This document shows, piece by piece, positions 23,331-64,000 of a DNA stretch of 64,000 nt. This DNA comes from Anadara kagoshimensis (lineage: Eukaryota; Mollusca; Bivalvia; Arcoida; Arcidae): assembly GCA_021292105.1 (NCBI GenBank), contig CM037861.1, positions 34,626,172 to 34,690,171 of the forward strand, given 5' to 3'. The position numbers were made by a program, and so were the translations under genes. Each line of letters begins with the position of its first letter. Within the stretch, counting starts at the first letter, position 1. The notes under the pieces are model-generated. The model was not told the origin of the DNA, searched no databases, and saw only the letters and a list, made by a program, of their open reading frames with translations.

Positions 23331-26300
23331 ACAAAAAAGGGGCCCATGGGCCTTAACGCTCACCTGAGGCTAAGTTCATATCTCATGCAGAGGTTCAATG
23401 GTCAATAACATTTATTAAAGAGAACTCCTAATTTTTAGCAGTAAGGCAGAATTAAATGCAAGGATTTTTGCAAATTAATCATACCTTGTCCCGAGATTGC
23501 TACATATATGTATAATATATATAATATTTAGTCTAGCTACAACACATTATTTATAAACAGCTGAAAAAGTAAAAACAAAAGTATGAAACTATGACCTTCA
23601 TCTATATATCAAAATGATTGTTAGGCCATTACCTACAATATTCGAATATACATGCCTATACAAAAAGTTAATAGTTTTCGAGATATTTAACCATTTCAGT
23701 ATCCTTTACCATCTGTAGCCTTGACCTTTGAACCCATTACCTTAATTCTATATATCAAAATGATCGTTAAATCAATTCCTACAATATTGTAATATACATG
23801 TTTATACAAAAAGTTTATAGTTTTCGAGATAATTAACCATTTCAGTATCCTTTCGCATCTGTGACCTTGACCTTCGAATCCATGACCTTAATCTATATAT
23901 CAAAATCATCGTTAAATCAATTCCTACAATATTGTATTATACATGTTTATACAAAAAGCCTATAGTTTTTGAGATAATTAACCATTTTAGTATTCTTTCA
24001 CATCTGTGACATTGACCTTTGAACCCATGACATAAATCTATATATCAAAATGATCGTTAAATCAAAACCTACAATATTCTAATATACATGTCTATACAAA
24101 AAAGTTTATAGTTTTTGAGATAATTAAACATTTCGGTATTCTTTTGCATCTGTGATCTTGACCTTTCGACCCATGACATTAATCTATATATCAAAATTGT
24201 TAAATCAAAACCTACCATATTCTAATATACATGTCTATACAAAAAGTTAATATTTTTCGAGATAATTAACCATTTTGGTATTGATTTGCATCTGTGACCT
24301 TGACCTTTGAACCCGTGACCTTAATCTATATATAAAAATGATCGTTAAATCAATTCCTACAATATTGTAATATACATGTCTATACAAAAAGCTTATAGTT
24401 TTTGAGACAATTAACCATTTCAGTATTCTTTCGCATCTGTGACCTTGACCTTTGAATGCATGACATCAATCTATATATCAAAATGATCGTTAAATCAAAA
24501 CCTCCAATTTTCTAATATACATGTCTATATAAAAAGTTTATAGTTTTTGAGATAATTAACCATTGCAGTATTCTTTCCCATCTGTGAACTTGACCTTTGA
24601 ACCCATGACATTAATCTATATATCAAAATGATCATTAAATTAAAACCTACAATATTCTAATATATATGTCTATACAAAAGTTGATAGTTTTTGAGATAAT
24701 TAACCATTTCGGTATTCTTTTGCATCTGTGACCTTGACCTTTGAACCCATGACATTAATCTATATATCAAAATGATCGTTAAATCAATTCCTTCAATATT
24801 CTAATATACATGTCTATACAAAAAGTTAATAGTTTTCTAGATAATTAACCATTTCGGTATTCTTTCGCATCTGTCACTTTGACCTTTGAACCCATGACCT
24901 TTATCTATACAGTATAACCTGCTATAGAGTCCACCTCTATATAAAGTCCACCTGTCTATAGCAACCGGTCTGAAGTATCCCCAATGGATTTTACTATATA
25001 ATGACCCTGTGTATAAAGTCCACCTGTCTAATGTGAATAGAGTCCACCCTTTTTAGTCCCAATTGACTTCTCAACCTGTCTATTAAGTCCACTATTTCAA
25101 TCAACTTTTTTAAAAGTTATTTTTCATATTTTAATTTTATTCTAATTTCATGTAATTTTTTAACCAAGTTATTATTATATTCTTAATGCTTGAAGATTAG
25201 AAATATATAATTATTATAAATCTTTTATCATTGTATAAGTTTTACAAATTTTTGTTGCAAAGAGTATAGATGAGTTATAATAAGTAAAAATTTGAGGGAA
25301 AAAATGTGAAGTCCTTATACTCATGTCAATGACTGAAGCCATTAGATCAGCAGTTAGAAACAGTCTTTGTTATTTAGGACAGTATGTTTTCTATACCTAT
25401 TGTTTTAATTAGTGACACCCTGCTTCCTAAGAAAACAAAGACATTAGTCAGGTGTATACTGATAGATAAACTTATAATTACCATGTAATCAGTTGTACTC
25501 TCCATTAAAGTTATAATGCACTTTTCAAATATCTTCTATAATTAATAATAAATCTTTTTTTTAATATCATAAAATAATTTTAATAAAATTAAACAAAAGG
25601 GTATTTTCCTATTTTAATAGGCATTGTAGGTATTATTTCCATTTATTTGTATACCAGTATCAACAATACACATTATCTTGTTCTTAAAGTGACCCTCTAT
25701 ATAAAGTGCACCTGTCTATTAAGTCCACTTTTGCTCAGTCCCCTGGGTGGTCTTTATACACAGGTTATAGTGTATATCAAAATGATCGTTAAATCAATTC
25801 CTTCAATATTGTAACATACATGTCTATACAAAAAGGTTATAGTTTTCGAAATAATTAACCATTTCAGTCTTGTTTTGCATCTGTGACCTTGACCTTTGAA
25901 CCCATGGCCTTTATTAATATATCAAAATGACCATTGTGCCATTACCTACAATATTCTAATATGTATGCCCATACAAAAGTTAATAGTTTTGCAGATAATC
26001 AACTATAACGATAATAGTTGTGCATCCTTGACCTTGACCTTTGAACTCATGACCTTGATCTATGTATCAAAATGATCGTCATGTCAATACCTACAATTAA
26101 CTGAAAATCCCATGCCATTATCACCTGAAATGTTTAAAAAATAGCATTTTTTATCAAAGGTCAAAAACAGGGACATGACCTTGACCTTTGACCTTGATAT
26201 CTTTTGGAAGAAAATAGCAAGACAAGATCAACAGTGAAAAGTCCATGCAATTATCTTCAGCCGTTATTGAGTTATAACAATAAATGTCTCATTTTCAAAA

Positions 26301-35449: not shown

Positions 35450-38138
35450 CAAGAGGCCCATTGGGCCTAATACGCTCACCTGATAAATAATAGCTCGATT
35501 GTCAAATGTCAAAATATGTCATAATAGTAACAATTTAAGGCGAAACTGTGAAAACAACAGTATAAAAGTAAAAATACTAGGCCATTTTGGATTTTTTTTG
35601 GTATTTGTGACCTTGACCCTTGAACATATGGCCTGTTATTATATCAAAATCATTATGATGAAAACACCTAATAGTCTAATATACATGCCTATATAAAGAG
35701 TTTATAGTTTTAGAGAAAATTAACATTTTCAATATTGTTTTGCATCTGTGACCTTGACCTTTGAACCCATGACCTTTTTCTATACAGCAAAATGACCGTT
35801 GTATCAATATACCTACAACATTCTAATATACATGCCTATACAAAAAGTTAATAGTTTTAGAGATAATTAACCATTTTAGTATTATTTCGCATCTGTATTG
35901 CAGTATTATTTCCCATCTGTGACCTTGACCTTTGAACCCATGACCTTAATCTCTATATCAAAATGATCGTTACATTAATACTAACAATATTCTAATATAC
36001 ATGTCTATACAAAAAGTTAATAGTTTTCTAGATAATTAACCATTTTTGTATTGTTTTGCATCTGTGACCTTGATCTTTGAACCCATGACCTTTTTCTATA
36101 CATCAAAATGATCTTTGTATCAATGCCTACAACATTCTTATATACATGCTTATACAAAAAGCTAATAGTTTTCAAGATATTTCATCATTTCAGTATTATT
36201 TCACATATGTGACCTTGACCTTTGAACCCATGACCTTAATCTGTATATCAAAATGATCATTACATTAATACTAACAATATTCTAATATACAGTTGACTCT
36301 CGTTATCTTGAACTCGACGGGGAAATGCAAAAAGTTCGACTTATCCGGAGTTCGAGATAACCAATGTTAAAAACGGCAACAAAAGGGAAGTAACTCGTAC
36401 ACGCCTACCAGAAGTCGCTTCCGGTTTTATCTTGTCAAACAGTATATTGCCGTTTTCTCCTATATGGTATGTATTCAATTATGCATTTTGTTTTATAAGA
36501 TTTTCTTTAATTACTCAAATCAGTCAATAACTGATTGCGCTATTGTTATTAGCCGACAAATAGTGGAGTCCGCTTTGGTCTCCATACCAGTTTCGCTTTG
36601 TGTACTTTAATCACCCAAAGCTTCCGGTTGTATTGAGTAATGTTCTCATCACACGCTTTTCGGCAGCCAAGTTCAGCTTTGCAGTAATTATAACACCTGC
36701 CAATCTCCTTCATGGTTTAATTGCTTATGCAAGGGATAATAATTAAGAGCTTAAGGAAATTGGGAGGTCAGTGCAATGTTGTCATTTTAAAATCAACACG
36801 AGGCCGACAGTCAAATATTTTATTTATGTCGGAATGTGTTTTTTCTGTAGGCGTTGACAAATTTGATCTTCCAAAAGTTTTGTTCGAGTTAACAAATTTA
36901 ATTTTTCTAAATTTTTTGATCAAGTTTGACATTTAATTTTCCTAATTTTTTGTTCGAGTTAACGAGTGTATTCTCCTAGGATTTTCATTGAAGGGGACGA
37001 AAATACTGTTCGACACATCCGATAATTCGAGATATCCGAGTTCGAGATAACCGGAGTGATTTTGGTTTAATAAAGAACAACTCTGTTCGGAGTTTTTAAA
37101 AAAGTTCGAGATATCCGGTAGTTTGAGATATCCGAGTTCGAGATAACGAGATTCAACTGTACATGTCTATACAAAAAGTTTTTGTTTTGGAGATAATTAA
37201 CCATTTTGGTATTGTTTCGCATCTGTGACCTTGACCTTTGGACTCATGACCTTTTTCTACACATCAAAATAATCTTTGTATCAATACCTACAACATTCTA
37301 ATATACATGCCTATACAAAGAGTTTATAGTTTTAGAGATAATTAACCATTTCAGTATTATTTTGCATCTGTGACCTTGACCTTTGAACCCATGACCTTAA
37401 TCTATATATCAAAATGATCGTTACATCAATACTAACAATATTCTAATATACTGTCTATACAAAAAGTTTATAGTTTTCTAGATAATTAACCATTTTGGTA
37501 TTGTTTTGCATCTGTGACCTTGACCTTTGAACCCATGACCTTTTTCTATACATCAAAATGATCGATGTATCAATTTCTACAACATTCTAATATACATCTC
37601 TATATAAAAGTTTATAGTTTTCGAGATAATAATTAAAATCAGAGGTTAAAAAAATAGGTCATGACTTTCACAATTGACCTTGACCCCATTTTGAAGATAA
37701 TAACAAGAATGTCAAAACTTAAAACCCATCTCATTAGATGGTCAAATAGCCAAGTTATAACAATTTTACGATTTTTTCAAATTAAAAATGCGTAACCTAT
37801 TTTTGTCCAAATTTCACAAAATGAACAAACTATAGTCTTAAGACCCTAGACAGCCAAATATCACATAAGATTTTTTCTCCAATCATTGATTTCGGAGAGA
37901 AGATTTTTTCAGATTTTTGCACCCCTAGGTCACCGTGACCTAGTTATGGTAGCCATGCCAACGCCACAAATCTGAATTGCACCGGCCCATGTATACTTCT
38001 TACCAAGTTTCATTAAAATCTGTCTTGTAGTTTCAGAACAGATGTCGAAAATAGGTGTTAACGATGCACACACGCACACACATACACACGCTGTGCTATG
38101 CCATAAGCTCACATGACCTTTCAGTCAGGTGAGCTAAA
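35450..38138. mobile_element. Tandem-repeat-bearing element, copy 3 (145-bp core)
   Basis: The head is CAAGAGGCCCATTGGGCCTA then ATACGCTCACCTGA. There are about eight 145-bp core units, with one TIR element inserted at 36290-37159. The tail has a CACACGCACACAC stretch and a hairpin ending CAGTCAGGTGAGCTAAA. The next element starts only about 12 bp later. Confidence 0.85.
36290..37159. mobile_element. 870-bp TIR element nested in copy 3, TA target site
   Basis: The termini are CAGTTGACTCTCGTTATCTT and the inverted CAGTTGAATCTCGTTATCTC. TA is duplicated at 36288-36289 and 37160-37161, and the surrounding core unit is restored by excision. The subterminal GTTCGAGATAACC / AGTTCGAGATATCCG motifs recur. 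TIR style and TA target match pogo/Tigger-type MITEs. No transposase is present. Confidence 0.9.
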
Positions 38139-38149
38139 TATTAAACAAA

Positions 38150-40725
38150 CAAGAGGCCCATGGGCGTTATACGCTCACCTGATAACTAATGGCTAGCTGA
38201 TAGATTTAAAGTAAATGTAAATACTAAACCCCAATGAGTTTTTTCTTTACATCAAAAGGATCATTGTATCAATACCTACAACATTCTTATATACATGCCT
38301 ATGCAAAACGTTTATAGTTTTCAAGATAATTAACAATTTCAGTATTGTTTTACATGTGACCTTGACCTTTGAACCCATGACCTTTTTCTATACATCAAAA
38401 TGACCGTTGTATCAATATCTACAACATTCTCATATAAATGCCTATACAAAAAGTTTATAGTTTTCGAGATAATTAACCATTTCGGTATTGATTCGCATCT
38501 GTGACCTTGACCTTTGAACCCATGACCTTTTTTCTATACATCAAAATGATCGTTGTACCATCCTACAACATTCTAATATATATGCCTATACAGAAAGTTT
38601 ATAGTTTTCGAGATAATTAACCACTTCAGTATTGATTCGCATCTGTGACCTTGACCTTTGAACCCATGACCTTTTTCTATACATCAAAATGATCGTTGTA
38701 TCAATACCTACAACATTCTAATATAAATGCCTATACAAAAAGTTTATAGTTTTCGAGATAATTAACCATTTCGGTGTTGTTTTGCATCTGTGACCTTGAC
38801 CTTTGAACCATGACCTTTTTCTATACATCAAAATGATTGTTGTATCAATACCTACAACATTCTAATATACATGACTATACAAAAGTTTATAGTTTTCGAG
38901 AAAATAATTATAATCAGAGGTAAAAAAAATTAGGTCACGACCTTCACAATTGACCTTGACCTCATTTTGAAGATACTAACAAGAAGGTGTCAAAACTGAA
39001 AACCCCATGTCATTATCTAGTCAAGTAGTCAAGTTATAACAATTTGAAGCTATTTTACGATTTTTTCAAAATTAAACGCAAAAAACGCGTACCGTAATCC
39101 TTCTATGTATTCGGACGAATTTTAATAATTTCATTTTCAAGTGTCCGGGAACTTAGAGGAAATATGAAAATTATACACTTGGAAAAATGGGGGTGTCCGA
39201 ATATTTAGAGTTGTCCGATATTTAGGAGCCGATAATATGTCTCGCTGCCCTCCCGGTAATGCAAGACACTATCAACGACGATACGCACATGGATATCATC
39301 TATAATATCAATTTTCAAATAAAGTTCCTGTTGAAATTACCTTTAGTGTTGTTTATTTCACAAAAAGTCGTTTTTTGAAGTGTTTGTTGACCAATAATCA
39401 TGATCCAATGTGTAATACACATCGAAGGACGCCATTTTTTGTAAGCAAATCGCGTGATTTTTGTCAGTAGTTTCCACCGTTTGAGGTTCACCGTTACCCC
39501 ACTTCGTCTTCTGTCACTGTCTACGGTCAAAATTTTTATAATTAATAATGGTCAAGAATATTTTTTAGTCAAGAAATTCCACATTTTGTACAATTAAGAA
39601 CCAGGACATGTTTGAATGGGGTTCGCCGTGATCAATATAGCTTTTGTTTAAAAATCTATGTTATCACTCACAGAACACAATAGTTTACAAATACATTGTT
39701 TTAACTCACGTTTCAAACAATTTTAATCTTAGGAAACAATAAATACATCGTAATGTCCATCTTCCCGTTTTTAGACAAATGAAAGTATCAGAGGATCGGG
39801 AATTCCCATAGTTGACATGCACTGAATCAGAAGGGATTCCACAAGTTTCTCATCCAATGAAATTCATTGATAACGTCACTTCCTGAAAAAATGTCTTTGA
39901 TGTTGGATTTGTGTGCCGACAGAACTTCTGGTCTCGTACGATGTTTCTTACCCACGATTTTAATTTCAATCAACTTTCACTTTCAAAGAATATTAAAACA
40001 CTTAATACAGGTATGGCTATATTCAGCTTACATTAAAAACGTAAATACATCGTAAAATACTTGTCCTCAAAGTTACAATCATGACTCCATCACGCAAATA
40101 CACAACGCAACAAACACATAAAAATAACAAATTCTAATGTAAATTAACAACAAAACAACAACATTTCTTCGTGTTTTTATTCAATATTAAGTATAAGCAA
40201 TATGTATTGCTTGTTACCGGGTGAATTCCAACAAAATCGCGTCCGGATTTAGAGGCAAAAAAATACCGTCCGAAATTAGAGGAAATTTGAAAATTATTAA
40301 AATTTCAAAATTGGGGTGTCCGAAAACATAGAGGGTCCGAATATATAGAAGGATTACGGTAACCCATTTTTCGACCGAATTTCACAAAATGAACAAACTA
40401 TAGGCTTAAGACCCTAGAGAAGCCAAATATCACATCAGATTTTTTCTCCAAACAAAACTTTCGGAGAAGAAGATTTTTTAGGATTTTTGCACCCCTAGGT
40501 CACCTTGACCCAGTTATGGTAGCCATTACAACGCCACGAACAAATCTAAATTGCACCGACCTAGACATGCTTCTGACCAAGTCTCGTTGAAATCTGCCAA
40601 GTACTTTCAGAGGAGAAGTCGAAAATGTGTGTTAACGACGCACGCACGCACACACGCACGCACGCACATACACACGCTGCACCATACCATAAGCTCACAT
40701 GACCTGTGGTCAGGTGAGCAAAAAA
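38150..40725. mobile_element. Tandem-repeat-bearing element, copy 4 (145-bp core)
   Basis: The head is CAAGAGGCCCATGGGCGTTA then TACGCTCACCTGA. It has about four core units, a tail with ACGC-rich microsatellite sequence, and the final hairpin GACCTGTGGTCAGGTGAGC. A third TIR element interrupts its tail at 39092-40359. Confidence 0.85.
39092..40359. mobile_element. 1.27-kb TIR element nested in copy 4, TA target site
   Basis: The termini are CCGTAATCCTTCTATGTATT and the inverted CCGTAATCCTTCTATATATT. TA is duplicated at 39090-39091 and 40360-40361. The interrupted host sequence (AACGCG...TAACC) is continuous in the other copies. TTAGAGGAAAT and GGGGTGTCCGAA motifs recur near both ends. It is non-autonomous. 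Confidence 0.9.
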
Positions 40726-45449: not shown

Positions 45450-45455
45450 TTTATT
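45450..45455 (-). terminator. Candidate poly(A) signal of the carrier gene
   Basis: AATAAA on the minus strand, about 100 nt beyond the stop codon of the terminal exon. Confidence 0.45.
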
Positions 45456-45552: not shown

Positions 45553-45624
45553 TCAAAATGTGGAAGCTCCAGCTAAACGTCTGACCTGTTCATATGACAG
45601 CCAAAATGTTAGTGACCAAGGTGC
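45553..45624 (-). CDS. SLC25A27: Carrier gene, terminal exon
   Basis: Acceptor TTTCTAG, then 23 codons ([20 protein letters not shown]...) and TGA. It starts in phase 0, matching the phase-0 ends of both alternative exons. It encodes the sixth transmembrane helix and C-terminus. Confidence 0.85.
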   Translation of the reverse strand, partial: APWSLTFWLSYEQVRRLAGASTF

Positions 45625-48600
45625 CTAGAAACAAAACAAAATCAATTATGATACATATACATGGACGTTATGACACTGTTTTTACTCGAATAGTCACAGG
45701 AATTACCAATATGAAAGGTTATACCATAGATCGGGAATTTTTCGTACATGTTTGTCTCTCCTAAACTCATTGGTGAATCATCAAGGTTTGTCTACCTTGG
45801 ACTCATTGGTGTCATCCTCAGTTGTCTCCCCCTGACTCATTGGTGTCATCATCAATTTTGACTTCCCTAATGTCTTGGTTCTCACCAAGTTGGTTTCCCT
45901 GAAGCCATTAGTGTCATCAAGTTTGTTTCCTCTGAACTCATTGGTGACATCATTATGTTTGTCTCCCCTGAACTCATTGGTGTCATCATCAAGTTTGTCT
46001 CCCCCTAAACTCATTGGTGTCATCATGTTGGTTTTCCCCTGAAGTCATTTGTCATCATGTTGGTTTCCCTGAAGTCATTTGTGTCATCATTAAGTTTGTC
46101 TCCCTGATGTCATTAGTGACATCATCAAGTTTGTCTCTCCTGAAGTCATTGGTGACATCAAGCTTGTCTCTCCTGAAGTCATTGGTGACATCATCAAGCT
46201 TTTCTCTTTTGATGTCATTGGTTCATCATTATTTTTTTAATTTTGAATTAAGTGGTTAGAGGTAATTGTCTTCTACTAACTCAAGTACTATTATTATCTA
46301 CTAAAATACAACATTTAAAGTAAGTCCTACAGATGGTTTTTTTTGTTCCTTTTATAAAATATATAGACATAAAATTGATAAAATATGAATAACAAATTAC
46401 TTACCTTGAAAGTCTAGAGATAAGAACTAAATGAGCATTGTTTTAACCTCTTAATACCTCCTAATGGCTACATCAATAATAATTTTTTATAGTTTATGTC
46501 AATTAAAAAAACATATACAGAATTTTTTTTACTCTTCAAAAGTAAAAATATTTTTGTGGTTGAGAAAATAGTAAATGGAAACAAATACTAGACGAGTATG
46601 TTAATAAAAACAATTTCTAAATTTTGATAATCAGAAAGATTTATACGTTACTCTTTTTTTAAATATGTCATAAAGTTATAAACATAGCACTGTCGTGCTG
46701 TTGTACAGCGTAGTTGGGAAAATTGTGTTGTGGCAAGACAGAATATAAGCGAAATTCGGGGTGGGTGTCGATATCTATGCATAGTCCGATGGATGGTTTT
46801 TTTTTGGAAAAACATGTACCAAACCATGTATTGCTGAATTAAATGGTAGAAAATAATAATTTCATAAATATATGAAAAAGACAATCGGTAATTAAAATTT
46901 AAAAAAGTTGTACCCGATCGTTTTGTCATTTCGGATAGAGAGAAAGTAGAGTTTGCAGATCCTACCGTCGCTATGAGGGGGTACATTCTAGCGGTTGTAT
47001 GTAACTGATCATTTGCTGTTAATCTGGGTTTTAATTAACTGCTGATTATCACTCACAATATTCCCGTTTCATTTTAATGGTGAAGTACAGTTGTTTTACC
47101 AGTTCCAAATTTTTACTACCGAATAATCTAAAATTTCAATCCCGTTCAATTAAAGGAATCGCAAAATAACTTTCTCAATTTGCTTCTACTTGAATGTATG
47201 GGCATTAATTGTTTAAATAATATAAACTTTAACCGCTTCCTAATGTATGTGCAGGACAGGTCGACAGATTGTTGGTGACCTAGTTTAACGATGTAAACAA
47301 ACAAATCGTGATCACGGAAATGCTTTTTTCAAGAAAACATACTACCACGTGTTTTTGAGGACAGGTGTTTTGGAATCAGTAAACATTTGTATTATTACAC
47401 CACATAAACTTTATTTCCTCTGCTTGTGGATGACGTCTGCAGCAGCGCTTATATGAAACCCTGTTCGGAACTGGTAAAAAGACTATTTAAAATTTGCACA
47501 CAACAACTGTACGAATTATCTCCCTTTCACGAAAGTAAAATCTAATCGATAAACAGTTTTAAAATATGACACAATTGCCTCAACATCAAAATACGTTATC
47601 ATAACCTTCAAAATAAATTTAAATTTCCGTAGATTTCACGAAGAATTAATTCAACAACCTGCCGTTGCTGTTCATTCATAAAAAGTTATGATTTTACATC
47701 GTAGGACGCCAACTTCTCGAACTACTTTTTATTGTAAACATGAGATCAGTTCGCCAAATTGCAGTGCATATGTAACCAAATGCTTTACCCGTCTCAGAAT
47801 ACATATCTCACGATAAAACAGATATATTTCTTTCACGCTCATTTACCAGGCGCACTATTTCCAGGTGTACTCATATCTTATAATTTCATAGCAAAGAAGC
47901 TCGATATCTTGGAAGAAAGCAATAGCAACGTACACGCATTCACTATCGTGAACGCTGTACAAAAATGGAAGGAAAGTATAATGGGCAGTTATTAAGAATT
48001 AGTCCATAGTACAATACACTAGTTATCATCAGCAACTAGATGAAATATAAGTAAGAGCAATAGATGTTAAATGATATGGAGAAGATATACAGGTCTAACC
48101 GGATAGTTAGGAGTCCTATTATATAACCTTTGTAAAACAGCAGTTTTGACGGTCTTAGTACTTGATGGTTTGTTAACTTATATTTGTAAAAAAAAACTAT
48201 TTTTATGTACTACATAGACTGTTTTTCAAATGGAATAATTAAGGTTCAATTTTAATTTAAGTAAACTTCATCTTCATAAATAGAAAATACTGAGAAGGAC
48301 TATAAAATCTTAAGTTTCATGTGATTACCAAGCACTTTGGAAGGAAAACTTGCAATTTTATCAGTTACAATTAATTATGTATTGAACAAACTAAAATATT
48401 TAGAAATAGGGTAAAAATGTATTTTTTGAGTGTATTTAACAATTTTTTATTTTTCCTATAACGTCCATTTCGTAATGAACAAGAGGCCCATGGGCCTTAT
48501 ACGCTCACCTGATAACTAATGGCTAGCTGATAGATTTAAAGAAAACATAAATACTAAACCCCAATGACTTTTTTCTTTACATCAAAATGATCATTGTATC

Positions 48601-51600
48601 AATACCTACAACATTCTAATTTACATGCCTATACAAAACATTTATAGTTTTCAAGATAATTAACCATTTCAGTATTGTTTTGCATCTGTGACCTTGACCT
48701 TTAAACCCATGACCTTTTTCTAAATATCAAAATGATTGTTGTATCAACCTACAACATTCTAATTTACATGCCTATACAAAAAGTTCACAGTTTTCGAGAT
48801 AATTAACTATTCCGGTATTTTTTTTGTTTCACATCTGTGACCTTGACCTTTGAACCCATGACCTTTTTCTATACATCAAAATGGTTGTTGTATCAATACC
48901 TACAACATTCTAATATACATGACTATACAAAAAGTTTATAGTTTTCAAGATAATTAACTATTTCGGTATTGTTTCGCATCTGTAACCTTGACCTTTGAAC
49001 CAATGACCTTTTTCTATACATCAAAATGATCATTGTATCAATACCTAAAACATTCTAATGTACATGACTATACAAAAAGTTCTTAGTTTTCAAGATAATT
49101 AACTATTTCGGTATTGTTTCACATCTGTGACCTTGACCTTTGAACCAATGACCTTTTTCTATACATCAAAATGATCATTGTATCAATACCTACAACATTC
49201 TAATATACTGCCTATACAAAAAGTTTATAGTTTTCGAGATAATGAACCATTTCGGTATTGATTCGCATCTGTGACCTTGACCTTTGAACCCATGACCTTT
49301 TTCTATACATCAAAATGATCGTTGTATCGATACCTACAACATTCTAATTTACATTAGCAGTTTTGACGGTCTTAGTACTTGATGGTTTGTTAACTTATAT
49401 TTGTAAAAAAAAACTATTTTTATGTACTACATAGACTGTTTTTCAAATGGAATAATTAAGGTTCAATTTTAATTTAAGTAAACTTCATCTTCATAAATAG
49501 AAAATACTGAGAAGGACTATAAAATCTTAAGTTTCATGTGATTACCAAGCACTTTGGAAGGAAAACTTGCAATTTTATCAGTTACAATTAATTATGTATT
49601 GAACAAACTAAATATTTAGAAATAGGGTAAAAATGTATTTTTGGTGAGTGTATTTAACAATTTTTTATTTTTCCTATAACGTCCATTTCGTAATGAACAA
49701 GAGGCCCATGGGCCTTATACGCTCACCTGATAACTAATGGCTAGCTGATAGATTTAAAGAAAACATAAATACTAAACCCCAATGACTTTTTTCTTTACAT
49801 CAAAATGATCATTGTATCAATACCTACAACATTCTAATTTACATGCCTATACAAAACATTTATAGTTTTCAAGATAATTAACCATTTCAGTATTGTTTGC
49901 ATCTGTGACCTTGACCTTTAAACCCATGACCTTTTTCTAAATATCAAAATGATTGTTGTATCAATACCTACAACATTCTAATTTACATGCCTATACAAAA
50001 AGTTCACAGTTTTCGAGATAATTAACTATTCCGGTATTTTTTTTGTTTCACATCTGTGACCTTGACCTTTGAACCCATGACCTTTTTCTATACATCAAAA
50101 TGGTTGTTGTATCAATACCTACAACATTCTTATATACATGACTATACAAAAAGTTTATAGTTTTCAAGATAATTAACTATTTCGGTATTGTTTCGCATCT
50201 GTAACCTTGACCTTTGAACCAATGACCTTTTTCTATACATCAAAATGATCATTGTATCAATACCTAAAACATTCTAATGTACATGACTATACAAAAAGAT
50301 CTTAGTTTTCAAGATAATTAACTATTTCGGTATTGTTTCACATCTGTGACCTTGACCTTTGAACCAATGACCTTTTTCTATACATCAAAATGATCATTGT
50401 ATCAATACCTACAACATTCTAATATACGTGCCTATACAAAAAGTTTATAGTTTTCGAGATAATGAACCATTTCGGTATTGATTCGCATCTGTGACCTTGA
50501 CCTTTGAACCCATGACCTTTTTCTATACATCAAAATGATCGTTGTATCGATACCTACAACATTCTAATTTACATTAGCAGTTTTGACGGTCTTAGTACTT
50601 GATGGTTTGTTAACTTATATTTGTAAAAAAAAACTATTTTTATGTACTACATAGACTGTTTTTCAAATGGAATAATTAAGGTTCAATTTTAATTTAAGTA
50701 AACTTCATCTTCATAAATAGAAAATACTGAGAAGGACTATAAAATCTTAAGTTTCATGTGATTACCAAGCACTTTGGAAGGAAAACTTGCAATTTTATCA
50801 GTTACAATTAATTATGTATTGAACAAACTAAAATATTTAGAAATAGGGTAAAAATGTATTTTTGGTGAGTGTATTTAACAATTTTTTATTTTTCCTATAA
50901 CGTCCATTTCGTAATGAACAAGAGGCCCATGGGCCTTATACGCTCACCTGATAACTAATGGCTAGCTGATAGATTTAAAGAAAACATAAATACTAAACCC
51001 CAATGACTTTTTTCTTTACATCAAAATGATCATTGTATCAATACCTACAACATTCTAATTTACATGCCTATACAAAACATTTATAGTTTTCAAGATAATT
51101 AACCATTTCAGTATTGTTTTGCATCTGTGACCTTGACCTTTAAACCCATGACCTTTTTCTAAATATCAAAATGATTGTTGTATCAATACCTACAACATTC
51201 TAATTTACATGCCTATACAAAAAGTTCACAGTTTTCGAGATAATTAACTATTTCGGTACTGTTTCACATCTATGACCTTGACCTTTGAACCCATGACCTT
51301 TTTCTTTACATCAAAATGATCGTTGTATCAATACCTACAACATTCTAATAAACGTGCCTATACAAAAAGTTTATAGTTTTCAAGATAATTAACCATTTCG
51401 GTATTGTTTTGCATCTGTGACCTTGACCTTTGAACCCATGACCTTTTTCTATACATCAAAATGATCATTGTATCAATACCTACAACATTTTAATATACAT
51501 GCCTATACAAAAAGTTTATAGTTTTCGAGATAATGAACCATTTCGGTATTGATTCGCATCTGTGACCTTGACCTTTTTCTATACATCAAAATGATCGTTG

Positions 51601-54600
51601 TATCAATACCTACAACATTCTAATTTACATGCTATACAAAAAGTTCACAGTTTTCGAGATAATTAACTATTCCGGTATTTTTTTTGTTTCACATCTGTGA
51701 CCTTGACCTTTGAACCCATGACCTTTTTCTATACATCAAAATGGTTGTTGTATCAATACCTACAACATTCTAATATACATGACTATACAAAAAATTCATA
51801 GTTTTTGAGATAATTAACCATTTCGGAGTTGTTTCGCATCTGTGACCTTGACCTTTGAACCCATGACCTTTTTCTATACATCAAAATGATTGTTTTTATC
51901 AATACCTACAACATTCTAATATACATGCCTATACAAAAAATTCATAGTTTTCGAGATAATTAACCATTTCGGTGTTGTTTCGTATCTGTGACCTTGACCT
52001 TGGAACCCATGACCTTTTTCTATACATCAAAATGATCGTTGTATCAATACCTACAACATTCTAATATACATGACTATACAAAAAGTTTATAGTTTTCGAG
52101 ATAATAATTATAATCAGAGGTAAAAAAAATTAGGTCACGACCTTCACAATTGACCTTGACCTCATTTTGAAGATACTAAAAAGAAGGTGTCAAAACTGAA
52201 AACCCCATGTCATTATCTGGTCAAATAGTAAAGTAATAACAATTTGAAGCTATTTTATGATTTTTTTCAAAATTAAACGCAAAAACGCGTAACCTATTTT
52301 TTGTCCGAATTTCACAAAATGAACAAACTATAGGCTTAAGACCCTAGAAAAGCCAAATATCACATCAGATTTTTTTTCCAGTGAATACTTTCGGAGAAGA
52401 AGATTTTTTAAGATTTTTGCACCCCTAGGTCACCTTGACCTAGTTATGGTAGCCATGGCAACGCTACGAACAAATCTGAATTGCACTGACCCAGACATGC
52501 TTCTGACCAAGTCTCGTTGAAATCTGCTGAGTACTTTCAGAGGAGAAGTCGAAAATGTGTGTTAACGACGCACGCACGCACACACGCACGCACGCACGCA
52601 CGCACATACACAAGCTGCACCATACCATAAGCTCACATGACCTTTGGTCAGGTGAGCTAAAAATGGTTTATAATATTATTTGACGTAGAGAAAGAATTTC
52701 ATTCATGTTTTGGAACATCTCAGTGTCTGAAATAATTTTTTTTACCAAAAGACATCAGTATAAAGGGATAACTGTGTCTTTTGCAATTTCATTGCGTCAA
52801 ATTTACATGGGTTTAATCTAGTGGTATGTCACATTTAGATAACTATTGAACAAATCATTGATAAAACATGTCAAAATTTGTTATACCTAACAATTTTGTG
52901 CTAACTATGAACCACTTAATGGGGGTGGGGGGGGGGGGGGGCTGGGGGGGGGGGTGGGTTGTGGGTGAGGGGGGGGGGGGGTGAGGGGGCTCCCAACTTT
53001 CAGGGTTAGACCTGTAAATGTTATTGAACAAACAGCTCTTCATAGGCGTGCAATATAGGCCAGGACATATTTTCAAAGTTTCACTGTGGTGTTTAAGAAA
53101 CACTTTTAGAGTTTGCCAATAATGTCCTCCTGCCCTGCATATCTCAAAATGTCAAACATTGATATTGATGACTTTTAATAGAAATTCTTTATATTTTTAA
53201 CACTTATGATGTACTTAAACATAACAGAAACACATTTTTGTTAAATAGCTTATACTATTTACAAAGATACCTACTTTACAAAAGGCCAGAAAAGAATTAT
53301 GAAATTTTGATATATTGTATATGGGCCTTGACAACCTGTTAAAATTTCAGGATATTTTTCCTAACTTTTGAAACTATGAATAGCCACCTGGTGGCCATTT
53401 TCATGGCATAAACTATCAATCTATATCCATTGGGGCTACCAAATTAAATTTAATATTTTTCAATGTGTTATTATACATGTATATTGAATATAAACATCAA
53501 CAAATATAGGTAAACAACATCGACCTGTCTGCTTGACCTTTAATTTGAATATTTATCATGAACCAGTGCATTTATGTATAGGAAACACTCGTTTATTTCA
53601 TCTACATAATGAAAACACTAATCAAGTGCCTTGTGTATACACTAGTTTCATAATTACCTGCTAATCTTAACATTACCCATGTATAGGGTGGACCCTCCTA
53701 TATGAATATTCCTAATGAAAGGTCAAACAGACAGATCAATGTTGTTTGCCTATACGTGTTTATAACAACATCAGGAAATACTGATACTAGTTTTGTTATT
53801 AGTGTTTTCTTTTAATGACAAGAAGCTGTTAAAAGTTTTTGCTACTTCAGATGATTGTGACCTTGAATTTAGGTAAGGGTCAATGAGCTATGGAACTTGT
53901 TAAGCATTTCAGGCCCGGATTCCCTATAAATTAGTTTAAGACTTTTAGACCTTTTGCTTGATGACAAGATGCTTAAAGGGTTTACTATTTAATTTCACTG
54001 TGACCTTGAATGATGGACATTCATTAAGCTTACCTTCATCATTTACTCAGGTAAGCTACAACGGCAAAGTCAAATTACAGACCTTGTCAATGAAAAATTT
54101 CAATTATGGGAAGTAATGAATGACAGATATAAGCAGAACAATCAATTAATTTCTTTTTAGTTCTCAGGAATTCTAAATTTAATATATTTCAGGCCAGTTT
54201 TAGCCCCACCCCAGGTGTCCATATGTCTAAATAGGCTTATATGGGAAATCAACTTTGAAAACTTTTTAATCTCAATCTGTAGATTCTAAAGAATCAATAA
54301 TTGTCAAGCCCTTTACAAGTTTGTACAAATGGTGGTTCCTGGTCTATGTTTGGCCACACCCAACAGGTTTATATGGCTATGTATAGGCTTATATGGGAAA
54401 TCAACACTGAAAACTTTTTTCTGTAAATCTGTATGTTCTAAAGCTTTCATGTTTGGCATTTAACATCAGCTGGAGCCCCTTTAGTTTATACAAATGGTGG
54501 CCCCCAGGTCATTTTGGCCCCATGCCAAGTCATGTGGTCAGAGACTTTTATCATTTGTGAAAACTGTAAGGGTAGGCATTCCTCCAATTTGATATATAGA

Positions 54601-56830
54601 AAGTAGGTATAGGGATATTAAATACATGTTATGAGTTATGATATGAATTACATATTATACCAGTTTTAATTTTACAGCACTAGACGGCCGTTTCGGAATA
54701 CAATTCCTCATCAGTAGTGCTTTGACCAAAATTATGAAACCAAAATTATTTTGAAGATGTTGAATAGCTACCCAGAGGACCAAAATATATTTTACCAAAT
54801 TAAGCTAAATTAGCTAACCTACAGCTAAATATAATACATTAACAGTATACTGTCATTAGCTAAAGGTCAATGGAAAGTTTATCTACTGTTTCTACAAATT
54901 CTATAAAAAGAGCACAACCAAAATAAAGCAATTCTATATCTTATCACAAACGATAGTAGCAAACATAGAAAAAACAAGCATTCTTAAAAGTACTCTGTGG
55001 CAAAACATAGTTCCCTACTCACTAAAAATTATTTGGACCACAATACAGTAAAACCTGATTTATCGCCAAACTTGTAAATTGTCAAAGAATCTTCTGGATT
55101 TGTTTTCCTTACATATAAAAGCCCCAATTTAAATGCCAAATTTGCCACATTTGCCTGATAACAAATGGTCATTTTTCTGTTTTTATAACCTCTATAATAC
55201 ATGTATTGACAATACTCAGAAAAGATGTTCAGGTTAGTAATATCTGAAATGCCAATCCTAATATGATAAAACTGACCCCCTTGTTTAAACCAATTGAGCA
55301 ATACATATCACAACCACTGTGATAAAAATTTTACTTCCTCTAGTGGTGACAACAAGATGTTTATTGCCAGATCAAGAGTCATTAGGTCATTCTTTGCTTT
55401 ATTTCCGTAATGATAATCTTGAGTATAGTGACCCATCTCCAATTCCGATTTTGACTTATCCTACTTTGACCACAGAATACGTGTATCAAATTCCGGTTTT
55501 CGTCTCCCTCAGTTTAATGCAAAACTTGTTACAAATGGATAAATAATGGCAGTTTAACAAGGTTTTACTGATGAATGAAAATTTCAATCATAGATAATAG
55601 GGATTTATATAAGAATAGTTTAAAACTAAAACAAGCAAGATAAAAATATGTACATTTGAAAGAAACACAGGACCATAACAAGCAAATTCAGTAAATTTGG
55701 ATTCTCTGCCAGCAGGTTCTTTTCTTGTGATTTGCACTTATGCACAAAGGGCAATAACTCCCAGGAGAATAAGCATACCAACTAAGGTTAATGTTATGAA
55801 CATCTCCCGTCAATTTTGATGCTTTGCATAACTAATTTAAAGAAATGAATGACTTATTTGTTTAAGTATATAGAAAGTATAGCGCTTCATTGTTATGGAG
55901 AATTAGAGCAGACAAAATTTTCAACAAACATAAAGAAAGATGAATGGACAGACAGGTGGACAGACGGGAACTCAAATTTAATAGAGTGGGGAATAATAAA
56001 AGTGTAATCATAAATTCAAGATGATGTGTGATACTGGGGTGTGCTACTGGGGTGTGCTACTGGGGTGTGATACTGGGGTGTGCTACTGGGGTGTGATATT
56101 GATTTGTAGTTTGCATTTGTATAACTTATTCAATAACTTAATATTTTAGTACAAATATATGAAATAATGTGGAAAAGTAATTTGTTTGATTGAAAAGGAC
56201 AGGTTAATTGCAAACAAAAAAGTAAATAACATAAAAAAAAACAAAAAAAGTCACATAGCTGACCAAAAATGATACAGTTTTGGCGGTCACAAACATCAAA
56301 CAAAATGCAAGGATTAATTTTTTCAAGATCAATTAGAAAATATTTAAATCATGAGTGATGAAACTGTGATCTTCAAACATATCAATTTAATAGGTCCTGA
56401 GAGATATGTCTAGATTACTTCTATAGTTAATATTGTGTTAAAAATGAAGGTCAAAACAGACATTTTATGGTCAGCTATGTCACCATACATATATACAAAT
56501 GTAGCATGGTGTTAGTAAAGTGCTAAGGTCATAAACAACTGCCCTTAAACTTACCATTCTGCTCCATATTGGAACAAATCCCTTATACAAAGCCATAAAT
56601 CCTTCTTTATTTACTGTTTGAACTAAACAATCTACTGATCCTTTATAAAATAATCCCCTGCAAATTATAAACAGAAGAAAAAAATATATACTGATTATTA
56701 TATAGCGTAATGTGCATAAAAACTAACCAGTCTCATCCAGCAAGGTGTATATCCCTTGAACAAAGCCATTGTCCCTTCTGTCTTCACAGTTTTAACAAAA
56801 CAATCTATAGTTCCTGTGTAATACTTAGGT
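45553..56830 (-). CDS. SLC25A27: Mitochondrial carrier, UCP4-like (SLC25A27), 3' part with alternative exons
   Basis: This is an inner-membrane solute or proton carrier of the SLC25 family. Three coding exons are visible: 56830-56728 (A), 56657-56555 (B) and 45624-45553 (last). A and B are homologous. Each encodes the matrix helix of the third carrier repeat with the family motif EGxxxx[YF]KG and the start of transmembrane helix 6 (PxWxR). The last exon gives [16 protein letters not shown] and the C-terminus. The run ALYKGF.P.W.RMAPWSL.FWL.YE..R is the UCP4 signature as I remember it; other UCP5/UCP-like carriers are less close. A or B joins the last exon in frame, but A plus B does not. Upstream exons, about four-fifths of the protein, are not seen and probably lie beyond the window. 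The last intron is about 11 kb and full of mobile elements. Confidence 0.82.
45775..46245. repeat. 36-bp minisatellite, about 12 units
   Basis: Units carry CTCATTGGTGTCATCATCAA then GTTTGTCTCCCCTGAA, with length variation. Repetitive frames of 81 codons on both strands come from the 3n unit length. It lies in the last intron of the carrier gene. Confidence 0.9.
46246..48138. other. Last-intron sequence, unassigned
   Basis: About 1.9 kb without recognised repeats. A 112-codon minus frame (46648-46986) and a 78-codon plus frame (47759-47995) have no recognisable domain. Base composition is less AT-rich around 46900-47500. Confidence 0.35.
48480..49352. mobile_element. Tandem-repeat element, triplication copy 1 (no tail)
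   Basis: The head is CAAGAGGCCCATGGGCCTTA then TACGCTCACCTGA, followed by about six 145-bp core units. It is cut off at the triplication junction. Confidence 0.9.
49698..50572. mobile_element. Tandem-repeat element, triplication copy 2 (no tail)
   Basis: Nearly identical to the preceding copy, including the unusual TATTTTTTTTGTTTCACATC unit variant. It is cut at the same point. Confidence 0.9.
50919..52664. mobile_element. Tandem-repeat element, third copy, complete
   Basis: Head, about eight core units, then the tail with CACGCACGCACACACGCACG and the hairpin ACATGACCTTTGGTCAGGTG followed by AGCTAAAA. This is probably the parent of the two shorter copies. Confidence 0.9.
52665..52919. other. 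Last-intron sequence, unassigned
   Basis: No recognised feature. Confidence 0.35.
52920..52988. repeat. G-rich tract
   Basis: About 69 bases of almost uninterrupted G on the plus strand, with single T, C or A breaks, so four or more G-runs could form a G-quadruplex. On the minus strand, the same sense as the carrier transcript, it is C-rich and gives a false proline-rich frame. Confidence 0.9.
52989..54160. other. Last-intron sequence with weak old repeats
   Basis: Two diverged segments near 53815-53900 and 53940-54020 share GACAAGA.GCT.AAA and TGTGACCTTGAAT, and the second ends at a hairpin-like ACTCAGGTAAGCTA. They look like worn copies of the GCTCACCTGA-ended superfamily. No gene was seen. 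Confidence 0.4.
54160..54560. repeat. Two to three diverged repeat units of about 170 bp
   Basis: AGGCTTATATGGGAAATCAA, ACAAATGGTGG and TTTGGCC recur in order. It is probably another tandem-core dispersed element. Confidence 0.55.
54676..54722. repeat. Short foldback, AGCACTA / TAGTGCT
   Basis: About 46 bp with inverted ends AGCACTA and TAGTGCT around GACGGCCGTTTCGGAATA. It may be the terminus of a dispersed element; this cannot be decided from one copy. Confidence 0.4.
55046..55570. mobile_element. 525-bp TIR element (MITE)
   Basis: The perfect 11-bp ends CAGTAAAACCT and AGGTTTTACTG resemble the CAGTATAACCTG ends of the 24910 element. TA precedes the left end, but the right flank is AT, so the target-site evidence is imperfect. 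Short frames inside have no transposase character. Confidence 0.55.
55688..55995 (+). mobile_element. Dispersed repeat, copy 2
   Basis: Collinear with 31490-31775: AGCAGGTTCTTTT, GATTTGCACTTA, AACTCCCAGGAGAATAAGCA, then GGACAGAC repeats and CTCAAATTTAATAGAG. Confidence 0.65.
56030..56098. repeat. 13-bp tandem repeat, 5 units
   Basis: TACTGGGGTGTGC alternates with TACTGGGGTGTGA. Confidence 0.9.
56099..56554. other. Last-intron sequence upstream of the branch to exon B
   Basis: AT-rich, with no recognised feature. Confidence 0.35.
56555..56657 (-). CDS. SLC25A27: Carrier gene, alternative exon B
   Basis: 103 bp with acceptor ATAATTTGCAG and donor GTAAGT. It encodes [19 protein letters not shown] then [15 protein letters not shown]. 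One leading base completes the preceding codon, and it ends on a codon boundary. This version is closest to the known UCP4 sequence. Confidence 0.85.
56658..56727 (-). other. 70-nt intron between alternative exons A and B
   Basis: It runs from donor GTTAGT to acceptor TTTGCAG, with a pyrimidine-rich stretch (TTTTTTTCTTCTG) before the acceptor. It is very short compared with the other introns. Confidence 0.75.
56728..56830 (-). CDS. SLC25A27: Carrier gene, alternative exon A
   Basis: 103 bp with acceptor TTTACTTTCAG and donor GTTAGT. It encodes [19 protein letters not shown] then [15 protein letters not shown]. It is about 50% identical (17 of 34) to exon B, with the same length and phases. 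Its frame is intact and the carrier motif is kept, which argues for function and not decay. Confidence 0.8.
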
Positions 56831-58345: not shown

Positions 58346-58964
58346 CCTACAATTGGAACCATGAAATTTTTTTTTACTGCAAAATAGTTTAGAAGATCAA
58401 AACTGCAAAGTTTCCTCTGCTAATGTTTCTTCTTATACAGTATTGGTTAAGGTTCTACAATTTTGATACCACGCACTTTAAAGACTCAACAGATCACTTC
58501 AGCCACTTTCAATACTGGAATTCTGTTAGAAATTTCCAATCAATTTATTTTTACCTCAGGATACTATTCAAGTGTAAATATAAATCTTAAAACTTAGTAG
58601 TTGTCTTTACAATGTAGACAAATGGTAGAATAGGACAATTCATTATAGACTTGTGGATTAGTCAAATGAGAGTTTAAATTATTCCATCCCATTTTTTAAC
58701 AAAAAACTTGTATTTATTCAAAGATAACACACATCTAAATTTTTCATTCAGTGACAAACAGATTATCTATGAGTAGTTGTGTTTCAAAACACTATTTAAA
58801 AATGAATTGCTTCTTCTAAGACACTGAGTAGGTCTGTGACAATCCATAGCTTTTTTATTTGATTATGGCTACTTCTGTTTGAACACACAATGAGTTATCA
58901 AGGTCATTGCCAGCTATAACCAAAGAGTGCTAAATCTATAGAAATGTTCTATTTCACACTTACA
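58346..58964. other. Unassigned sequence upstream of the carrier exons
   Basis: No carrier exon was recognised here. AT-rich, with short frames only. Confidence 0.4.
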
Positions 58965-60305
58965 GCATATACATGTATTTACAGACCAGAAGTAACAGGT
59001 GTTTGTTTCTTAAGTCTCTGTATTTACATACCAGAAGCTATAGATGTTTGTTTCTCAAGTCTATGTATTTACAGACCAGAAGTAACAGGTGTTTGTTTCT
59101 CAAGTCTCTGTATTTACATACCAAAAGCTATAGATGTTTGTTTCTCAAGTCTCTGTATTTACATACCAGAAGTTATAGATGTTTGTTTCTCAAGTCTCTG
59201 TATTTACAGAACAGAAGTTACAGGTGTTTGTTTCTCAAGTCTATGTATTTACAGACCAGAAGTAACAAGTGTTTGTTTCTCAAGTCTCTGTATTTACATA
59301 CCAAAAGCTATAGATGTTTGTTTCTCAAGTCTCTGTATTTACATACCAAAAGCTATAGATGTTTGTTTCTCAAGTCTCTGTATTTACATACCAAAAGCTA
59401 TAGATGTTTGTTTCTCAAGTCTCTGTATTTACATACCAGAAGTTATAGATGTTTGTTTCTCAAGTCTATGTATTTACATACCAGAAGTTATAGATGTTTG
59501 TTTCTCAAGTCTCTGTATTTACATACCAAAAGCTATAGATGTTTGTTTCTCAAGTCTCTGTATTTACATACCAGAAGTTATAGATGTTTGTTTCTCAACT
59601 CTATGTATTTACATACCAGAAGTTATAGATGTTTGTTTCTCAAGTCTATGTATTTACATACCAGAAGCTATAGATGTTTGTTTCTCAAGTCTATGTATTT
59701 ACATACCAGAAGTTATAGATGTTTGTTTCTCAAGTCTCTGTATTTACATACCAAAAGCTATAGGTGTTTGTTTCTCAAGTCTCTGTATTTACAGACCAGA
59801 AGTTACAGGTGTTTGTTTCTCTAGTCTCTGTATTTACAGACCAGAAGTTTTAGATGTTTGTTTCTCTAGTCTCTGTATTTACAGACCAGAAGTTATAGAT
59901 GTTTGTTTCTTAAGTCTCTGTATTTACATACCAAAAGCTATAGGTGTTTGTTTCTCAAGTCTCTGTATTTACAGACCAGAAGTTTTAGATGTTTGTTTCT
60001 CTAGTCTCTGTATTTACATACCAAAAGTTACAGGTGTTTGTTTCTCAAATCTCTGTATTTACAGACCAGAAGTTTTAGATGTTTGTTTCTCTAGTCTCTG
60101 TATTTACAGACCAGAAGTTATAGATGTTTGTTTCTCAAGTCTCTGTATTTACATACCAAAAGCTATAGATGTTTGTTTCTCAAATCTCTGTATTTACATA
60201 CCAGACATTATAGATGTTTGTTTCTCAAGTCTCTGTATTTACAGAACAGAAGTTATAGATGTTTGTTTCTCCAGTCTCTGTATTTACAGACCAAAAGATA
60301 CAAAT
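58965..60305. repeat. 45-bp minisatellite, about 30 units
   Basis: Units carry TGTATTTACATACCAGAAGC, TATAGATGTTTGTTTCTCAA and GTCTC. Units differ at a few fixed positions (ACAGACC or ACATACC; GCTATAG, GTTATAG, GTAACAG or GTTTTAG). The 3n length and absence of stops give an open frame from ATG 58944 (CIYIPEAIDVCFSSL repeats). Confidence 0.95.
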
Positions 60306-63300
60306 ATTTGTCTACCAATACCTCATATAATGATGCTCTGTCTAACCGACATCATGATACTGTGTCTAACAATACCTGACATCATGATGCTGTGTCTAAC
60401 AATACCCCACATCATGATGCTGTGTCTAACAATACCGGACATCATGATACTGTGTCTAACAATACCTCATATCATGATACTGTGTCTAACAATACTGGAC
60501 ATCATGAAGCTATGTCTAACAATACCTGACATCATGATACTGTGTCTAACAATACCTGACATCATGATGCTGTGTCTAACAATACCTGACATCATGATGC
60601 TTTGTCTAACAACACCTGGCATCATGATACTGTGTCTAACAATACCTGACATCATGATGCTGTGTCTAACAATACCTGACATCATGATGCTGTGTCTAAC
60701 TATACCTGACATCATGATACTGTGTCTAACATTACCTCACATCATGATGCTGTGTCTAACAATACCTGACATCATGATGTTGTGTCTAACAATACCTCAC
60801 ATCATAATACTGTGTCTAACAATACCGGACATCATGATGCTGTGTCTAACAATATCTGACATCATGATACTGTGTCTAACAATACCTGATATCATGATAC
60901 TGTGTCTAACAATACCTCACATCATGATGCTGTGTCTAACAATACCTGACATCATGATGCTGTGTCTAACAATATCTGACATCATGATGCTGTGTCTAAC
61001 AATACCGGACATCATGATGCTGTGTCTAACAATATCTGACATCATGATACTTTGTCTAACAATACCTGATATCATGATACTGTGTCTAACAATACCTGAC
61101 ATCATGATGCTGTGTCTAACAATACCTGACATCATGATGCTGTGTCTAACAATATCTGACATCATGATACTGTGTCTAACAATACCTCACATCATGATGC
61201 TGTGTCTAACAATACCTGACATCATGATGCTGTGTCTAACAATATCTGACATCATGATGCTGTGTCTAACAATACCGGACATCATGATGCTGTGTCTAAC
61301 AATATCTGACATCATGATACTGTGTCTAACAATACCTCACATCATGATGCTGTGTCTAACAATACCTGACATCATGATGCTGTGTCTAACAATATCTGAC
61401 ATCATGATGCTGTGTCTAACAATACCGGACATCATGATGCTGTGTCTAACAATATCTGACATCATGATACTGTGTCTAACAATACCTGACATCATGATGC
61501 TGTGTCTAACAATACCCCACATCATGATACTGTGTCTAACAATACCTGATATCATGATACTGTGTCTAACAATACCTGACATCATGATGCTGTGTCTAAC
61601 AATACCTGACATCATGATGCTGTGTCTAACAATACCTGATATCATGATACAGTGTCTAACAACACCTGACATCATGATGCTGTGTCTAACAATACCTGAC
61701 ATCATGATGCTGTGTCTAACAATATCTGACATCATGATACTGTGTCTAACAATACCTCACATCATGATGCTGTGTCTAACAATACCTGACATCATGATGC
61801 TGTGTCTAACAATATCTGACATCATGATGCTGTGTCTAACAATACCGGACATCATGATGCTGTGTCTAACAATATCTGACATCATGATACTGTGTCTAAC
61901 AATACCTCACATCATGATGCTGTGTCTAACAATATCTGACATCATGATGCTGTGTCTAACAATACCGGACATCATGATGCTGTGTCTAACAATATCTGAC
62001 ATCATGATACTGTGTCTAACAATACCTGACATCATGATGCTGTGTCTAACAATACCCCACATCTTGATACTGTGTCTAACAATACCTGATATCATGATAC
62101 TGTGTCTAACAATACCTGACATCATGATGCTGTGTCTAACAATACCTGACATCATGATGCTGTGTCTAACAATACCTGATATCATGATACAGTGTCTAAC
62201 AACACCTGACATCATGATGCTGTGTCTAACAATACCTCAAATCATGATGCTGTGTCTAACAATACCTGACATCATGATGCTGTGTGTAACAATACCTCAA
62301 ATCATGATGCTGTGTCTAATAATACCTGACATCATGATGCTGTGTGTAACAATACCTGACATCATGATACTGTGTCTAATAATACCTGACATCATGATGC
62401 TGTGTGTAACAATACCTGACATCATGATGCTGTGTCTAATAATACCTGACATCATGATGCTGTGTCTAACAATACCTCAAATCATGATGCTGTGTCTAAC
62501 AACACCTGACATCATGATGCTGTGTGTAACAATACCTCAAATCATGATGCTGTGTCTAACAACACATGACATCATGATGCTGTGTCTAACAATACCTCAA
62601 ATCATGATGCTGTGTCTAATAATACCTGACATCATGATGCTGTGTGTAACAATACCTCACATCATGATGCTGTGTCTAACAATACCTGACATCATGATAC
62701 TGTGTCTAACAATACCTGACATCATGATGCTGTTTGGACCAATACCTCACATTAGATCCTGTGTCTAACAATACCTGACATCATGATGCTGTGTGTAACA
62801 ATACCTGACATCATGATGCTTTGTCTAACAACACCTGACATCATGATACTGTGTCTAACAATACCTGACATCATGATGCTGTGTCTAACAATACCTGACA
62901 TCATGATGCTGTGTCTAACAATACCTGACATCATGATACTGTGTCTAACAATACCTGACATCATGATGCTGTGTCTAACAATACCCCACATCATAATGCT
63001 GTGTTTAACAATACCTGACATCATGATACTGTGTCTAACAATACCCGACATCATGATGCTGTGTGTAACAATACCTCACATCATGATGCTGTGTCTAACA
63101 ATACCTGACATCATAATGCTGTGTCTAACAATACCTGACATCATGATACTGTGTCTAACAATACCTGACATCATGATGCTGTGTGTAACAATACCTCACA
63201 TCATGATGCTGTGTCTAACAATACCTGACATCATAATGCTGTGTCTAACAATACCTGACATCATGATACTGTGTCTAACAATATCTGACATCATGATGCT

Positions 63301-64000
63301 GAATGTAACAATACCTCACATCATGATGCTGTGTCTAACAATACCTGACATCATAATGCTGTGTCTAACAATACCTCACATCATGATGCTGTGTCTAACA
63401 ACACCTGACATCATGATACTGTGTCTAACAATACCTCACATCATGATACAGTGTCTAACAATACCTGATATCATGATACTGTGTCTAACAATACCTCACA
63501 TCATGATACTGTGTCTAACAATACCTCACATCATGATGCTGTTTGGACCAATACCTCACATCATGATGCTGTGTCTAACAATACCTCACATCATGATACT
63601 GTGTCTAACAATACCTTACATCATGATACTTTGTCTAACAATACCTCACATCATGATACTGAATCTAACAATACCTCACATCATGATGCTGTTTCGACCA
63701 ATACCTCACATCATGATGCTGTGTCTAACAATACCTCACATCATGATACTGTGTCTAACAATACCTGACATCATGATGCTGTGTCTAACAATACCCCACA
63801 TCATGATGCTGTGTCTAACAATACCTGACATCATGATACTTTGTCTAACAATACCTGACATCATGATACTTTGTCTAACAATACCTGACATCATGATGCT
63901 GTGTCTAACAATACCTGACATCATGATGCTGTGTCTAACAATACCTGACATCATGATGCTGTGTCTAACAATACCTGACATCATGATGCTGTTTCGACCT
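60306..64000. repeat. 30-bp minisatellite, about 123 units, runs off the window
   Basis: The unit is CTGTGTCTAACAATACCTGA then CATCATGATG. Variants (CCTCAC, ATCTGAC, ACCGGAC, CCCCAC, GTGTGTAAC, ATGATAC) recur in blocks: 61441-61680 is repeated almost exactly at 61981-62220 (540 bp apart). Both strands are open in the 3n frame (LCLTIPDIMM on plus, MMSGIVRHSI on minus). A 28-bp-type irregularity near 62750 shifts the plus frame and ends the long open frame at 62768. Confidence 0.97.

Follow-up and report, generated by a model that had tools for sequence, protein, structure and literature searches.

Carriers of the SLC25 superfamily have three repeats, six helices and PX[DE]XX[KR] motifs, which are located on H1, H3 and H5. 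Gene structures with tandem exons that exclude each other are known, as in SLC25A3, coq-2 and OGDH, and the exons 3A and 3B of SLC25A3 lie in the N-terminal third. This pair in the mitochondrial phosphate carrier is described as mutually exclusive, located within the folded domain and switching in expression (Hatje et al. 2017, PMC5740500). For coq-2, the exons 6a and 6e are reported as mutually exclusive in helminths, annelids and molluscs, with RNA-seq in molluscs (PMC7434440). In OGDH, exclusivity is reported to be enforced by branch points that lie 25–41 nt from the donor, less than the threshold of about 50 nt that has been proposed (PMC7969005). The AOX of the oyster Crassostrea virginica, an inner-membrane protein, is reported to have a duplicated exon 10; the copies are 63.5% similar in DNA and are shifted by air exposure (PMC5589949).

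The window, a stretch of 64,000 nucleotides of Anadara kagoshimensis (contig CM037861.1), contains on its minus strand two neighbouring exons, A and B, and a last coding exon (Table 1). A tandem-duplicated penultimate coding exon of a UCP4-like SLC25 carrier, used in true mutually exclusive fashion, is the probable explanation of this arrangement. The gene shares with SLC25A3 the superfamily of mitochondrial carriers and, putatively, the mutual exclusion of two exons, but the carrier is a different one and its third repeat holds the swap, at contact point III. The likeness to coq-2 is that of a mitochondrial protein with one exon of the general form and one divergent exon, the reported coq-2 change being near the substrate; unlike here, coq-2 is a quinone synthesis enzyme, and its exons are reported to have been tested by deletion in C. 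elegans (PMC7434440). The intervening intron is short, as between exons 4a and 4b of OGDH, whereas branch points are reported as mapped in human OGDH (PMC7969005) and the present intron offers adenine positions as candidates. AOX shares the duplicated exon, but its copies are described as terminal exons with an alternative acceptor (PMC5589949), in contrast to the internal, probably mutually exclusive UCP4-like pair.

Table 1. Features of the UCP4-like gene in the window, in the order of transcription.
Feature	Position	Strand	Remarks
Exon A	56728..56830	-	103 bp; first in transcription; 34 codons, end CWMRL
A-B intron	56658..56727	-	70 nt, GT-AG
Exon B	56555..56657	-	103 bp; 34 codons, end IWSRM
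Exon B-to-last-exon intron	45625..56554	-	10,930 bp; tandem repeat arrays including 36-bp and 145-bp units
Terminal coding exon with stop	45553..45624	-	Entered in phase 0; compatible with A as well as B; 23 residues
AATAAA, likely polyadenylation signal	45450..45455	-	

Exons A and B have identical phases, with one nucleotide of a split codon followed by 34 codons and an end at a codon boundary. Each is preceded by AG and followed by GT. The two share 17 of 34 residues and 67 of 103 bases, and both contain the motifs EGxxxx[YF]KG and PxWxR. Exon A, the copy less like human UCP4, has no stop and no indel, and its AG/GT borders are intact. The original prediction of two adjacent 103-bp exons with about 50% protein identity, equal entry and exit phases and both motifs retained was thus borne out in all these points. 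The last exon opens with a full GCA codon and has TGA at its end, 98 bp before the AATAAA. The first two bases of the split codon shared by A and B fall outside the window; by inspection, AGA/AGG or CGA/CGG would make it an arginine with A as with B. An exon upstream of A is expected because this 5′ split codon is open and the N-terminal part of the protein is missing. Hatje et al. (2017) ask, among other things, for adjacent internal coding exons that are similar in length and sequence and have a common reading frame, and the pair shows all of these features, with 103 and 103 bp at a distance of 70 bp.

The similarity of the two exons was compared with all 127,798 34-codon positions in the six frames of the window. 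With B as query, exon A scored 105 (z 11.5) and the runner-up 29; with A as query, exon B scored 105 and the runner-up 24. The z values of the A/B similarity were 11.2 and 11.5. No third copy of the exon stood out among these positions. AG-N103-GT stretches occurred 495 times on both strands, 32 of them open in the phase of A and B. Among these 32, A scored 105 against B and the next stretch −2. The top score in 100,000 shuffles of A against B was 31, versus 105 for the real A. In the 70-nt flanks, ungapped identity was 27/70 on each side, compared with 67/103 in the exons. Uncollapsed haplotypes or an assembly duplicate were ruled out because the copies are just 65% identical in DNA and the flanks match at 27/70 positions.

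The gene was assigned by a search of the window with a provisional human UCP4 sequence at E < 1. Residues 266–300 of this query matched exon B at 56659–56555 with 69% identity over 35 residues; the first residue of the match was read from the AG of the intron and the first base of the exon. Its residues 270–300 matched exon A at 56820–56728 (42% identical), and its residues 302–323 matched the last exon at 45621–45556 (55% identical). At E < 1, the query had no match in the window for the roughly 265 residues that precede exon A. This part of the protein should be located past the right edge of the window, behind a 3.7-kb array of 30-bp repeats. Pfam Mito_carr (PF00153, cut-off 22.3 bits) recognised each exon alone, A with 28.9 and B with 26.4 bits. 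Joined to the last exon, with arginine assumed for the split codon, the scores were 46.3 bits for A and 43.8 bits for B. The match spanned positions 44–92 (A) and 47–92 (B) of the 96 profile positions, so that the PF00153 repeat that serves as criterion for SLC25 was present in both products. In phmmer, A with the last exon hit UCP1 (1.8e-14) and B with the last exon hit UCP2 (5.3e-11), both E-values being for the whole chain.

Identities were also counted against human UCP sequences that were mostly provisional. By this count, exon B shared 23 of 34 residues with UCP4, 17 with UCP5, 12 with UCP2 and 11 with UCP1. Exon A had 16 identities to UCP5, 13 each to UCP4 and UCP1 and 10 to UCP2, and its BLOSUM scores against UCP4 (84) and UCP5 (82) were about equal. 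For the 17 residues compared in the last exon, these sequences gave 9 identities to UCP4, 8 to UCP5, 5 to UCP2 and 4 to UCP1. The gene is likely an SLC25 carrier with UCP4 as the most likely identity, judged from 58 residues. A scan of prokaryote genome contigs with B plus the last exon matched 100 stretches, none of which was confirmed. Scans of viral contigs with B or A plus the last exon yielded no relative; in the scan with A plus the last exon, two stretches fitted a pattern and neither was confirmed.

The position of the swap in the protein was derived from an alignment with UCP1 (chain 8g8w, residues 248–298), in which an inferred construct offset of three puts the arginine at R277. By this alignment, the exon corresponds to UCP1 residues 245–278 and ends one residue past R277. 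We take this stretch to be h56, the third of the matrix helices, followed by the core half of H6 on the matrix side, as far as the hinge; the constant last exon presumably forms the gate half of helix 6. In UCP1, R84, R183 and R277 are described as contact points of the substrate site and as core/gate hinges, L278 and W281 as hydrophobic cavity residues, and K38 and K138 as residues of the matrix network (PMC10413660). The R277 position is conserved in A and B. The neighbouring positions differ between A and B: Leu and Met, respectively, at 278, Met and Ser at 276, Cys and Ile at 274, and Thr and Val at 272. The W281 position is in the shared last exon. The positions of K38 and K138 are outside the A/B exon. 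The original placement of the swap near the matrix salt-bridge network was imprecise, as the residues of that network are not in the exon. It is reasonable to infer that the two isoforms would differ in gating or in their contact with the substrate.

The frame sets a limit on the use of the two exons. Four joins can be made, and the A-only and B-only joins are the only two that keep the frame to the normal stop. With neither exon, translation would end once four complete codons of the last exon have been read. With both, exon B has a stop at its nt 13, which is 88 nt ahead of the junction of B and the last exon, and decay of this transcript is expected. Joint inclusion would be non-functional, as in the definition of Hatje et al. 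(2017), since 103 is not a multiple of 3. Equal length, same phases and the broken frame with both or neither exon make mutually exclusive use well supported at the level of predicted transcripts. The same early stop would also suit a poison exon: inclusion of A together with B would then tune the carrier level by decay and yield no second protein. This reading is highly improbable, for a poison exon has no need to keep an intact, family-like carrier segment of 34 residues, and the A-B join requires the removal of a 70-nt intron with adenines at most 43 nt from the donor, except for those within 10 nt of the acceptor. Introns as short as 70 nt are spliced in some invertebrates. In the A-B intron, nt 44 to 59 are a pyrimidine-rich stretch without adenine. 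The fullest matches to the branch-site consensus are A11 and A60, and the branch point is uncertain because neither is at the usual branch distance. A60 is a full match 10 nt from the acceptor; if usable, it would be separated from the donor by 59 nt and thus exceed the steric limit of about 50 nt, a mammalian value that may not apply to this organism. Steric blocking by the short intron is possible. Known mechanisms of exclusivity include a donor–branch-point distance below 50, reported for 57 clusters (9%), and a length not divisible by three, with frame-breaking lengths in 377 clusters (60%) (Hatje et al. 2017, PMC5740500). Incompatibility of U12 and U2 introns was ruled out by inspection, with GT-AG borders and ordinary donors. 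Competing RNA pairing of a docking site with selectors, in place of frame and steric hindrance, is quite improbable as the cause of exclusivity. An inverted repeat downstream of B and the pairing of the 300 nt upstream of A with the 300 nt downstream of B, as strong in just 9 of 200 shuffles, speak for it. However, pairing of the upstream region with the intron was at chance (133/200 shuffles at or below the observed energy) and that of the intron with the downstream region was weak (19/200), while the shuffles did not preserve dinucleotides and three region pairs were tried. No convincing competing pairing was found across these three pairs with 200 shuffles each.

A further reading is that B alone is spliced and that A, a leftover of the tandem duplication of the exon, is used very rarely or never. 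The splice sites of A are the weaker ones: approximate matrices placed its donor at the 94.8th and its acceptor at the 78.1th percentile among the GTs and AGs of the minus strand, and those of B at the 99.6th and 99.1th. The lower identity of A to the provisional human UCP4 sequence (13/34 versus 23/34 for B) also fits a relic. The A/B differences by codon position were 9, 11 and 15 of 34, and the third-position excess was not significant (15/35, p 0.155), so the codon pattern alone is no proof of constraint. A relic is nevertheless unlikely in view of the absence of any stop, indel or AG/GT loss in A, its higher Pfam score than B and its score with a carrier profile. This profile was built from 15 segments of five solved carriers and gave 56.1 for A, 39.3 for B and 37.7 for the provisional human UCP4 sequence; because the segments had been collected by searches with A and B, the profile is mildly biased, whereas the Pfam result is free of this bias. 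Neutral drift was simulated from B with 35 differences in 102 bases, the observed divergence, or with 17 differences. At 35 differences, the mean carrier score was −14.8, 18.1% of the copies were without stop and 1.3% were without stop and had at least 17 identical residues. At 17 differences, 36.7% were without stop. None of 20,000 copies reached the score of A at either setting, and exon A therefore looks maintained. The values of dN (0.38) and dS (0.89) between A and B (NG86) also speak for the exclusive pair.

With a maintained exon A, the mutually exclusive pair remains the preferred reading, and the gene can probably make two carriers by the choice of A or B. Two carriers would arise from one pre-mRNA, with 17 of 34 residues exchanged in h56 and in the half of helix 6 on the matrix side. 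Exclusivity would be enforced by the frame and nonsense-mediated decay, perhaps aided by steric hindrance in the 70-nt intron. Exon B, which is UCP4-like and has the stronger splice sites, is likely the default, and A would be the regulated form. The swap may tune substrate contact or transport kinetics rather than abolish transport, because the exon ends one residue past R277 of contact point III, the core/gate hinge. Two isoforms that differ within 34 residues beside this contact point would be a ready-made experiment on that half helix.

The UCP4 substrate is reported to differ by species: Drosophila UCP4A, by homology of the same subfamily as the carrier described here, transports aspartate unidirectionally, and a link of worm UCP4 to succinate is suggested (PMC8834685). 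In bivalves, succinate is reported to accumulate in the hypoxic gills of Lucinoma capensis, which is called typical of marine bivalves, and aspartate to be depleted in hypoxic Mytilus edulis (PMC12717985). A link of the exon choice to these hypoxic changes in succinate and aspartate is speculation. It is rather doubtful that the exon choice acts as a physiological switch, driven for instance by the supply of oxygen, between two UCP4 carriers with different substrate or coupling; if present, an oxygen-linked switch in UCP4 would parallel that of coq-2. Exon A has a cysteine three residues ahead of the hinge arginine, possibly a redox-sensitive site. If regulated, the pair would add a carrier to the mollusc mitochondrial proteins with reported duplicated-exon splicing, coq-2 and AOX.

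No report of duplicated exons in UCP4 was found in the titles and abstract openings among the matches listed, a scope outside of which most subscription papers lie. The word 'exon' is absent from the main text of the Drosophila UCP4A paper (PMC8834685) and is never used in one UCP review (PMC3432969); 'mutually exclusive' is never used in another (PMC7504413). SLC25 goes unmentioned in the main text of a survey on tandem exon events in humans (PMC9741552). Predicted isoforms in the annotation of public sequence databases, which are outside the scope of the literature, may already show the UCP4 pair.

The window is rich in repeats. The inverted repeat beside the exon pair has arms at 56464–56483 (minus strand) and 56250–56269, with 20 bp, 90% complementarity and 194 nt between the arms. 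It starts 71 nt beyond the exon B donor, is MITE-like in its resemblance to the ends of short MITEs, and is not certainly part of the system. Its 15-base core had no other match in the window at up to 2 mismatches. Upstream of exon A, 58974–63992 consists of adjoining minisatellites, a 45-bp unit repeated 29.7 times and a 30-bp unit repeated 123 times. A plus-strand frame across them (58920–62765) is without stop for 1282 codons and probably fortuitous. Separate arrays of a tandem repeat with a unit of roughly 145 bp are located at 23584–24909, 35743–36291, 37160–37630, 38240–38905 and 48561–52105, and some of these arrays sit within the intron separating exon B from the last exon. Further arrays are a 46-bp unit repeated 131 times at 4238–10126 and a 23-bp unit repeated 125 times at 17709–20587, the latter with three open minus-strand frames of 975 to 992 codons. 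The domain scan of open frames covered 10 of the 133 frames of at least 60 codons. A minus-strand frame of 576 codons at 2429–4156 matched DUF4371 with 47.8 bits (cut-off 32.1) and, below threshold, the hAT dimerisation domain with 13.6 (cut-off 21.4). From these two matches, this frame is perhaps a gene or remnant of a hAT-type transposase.
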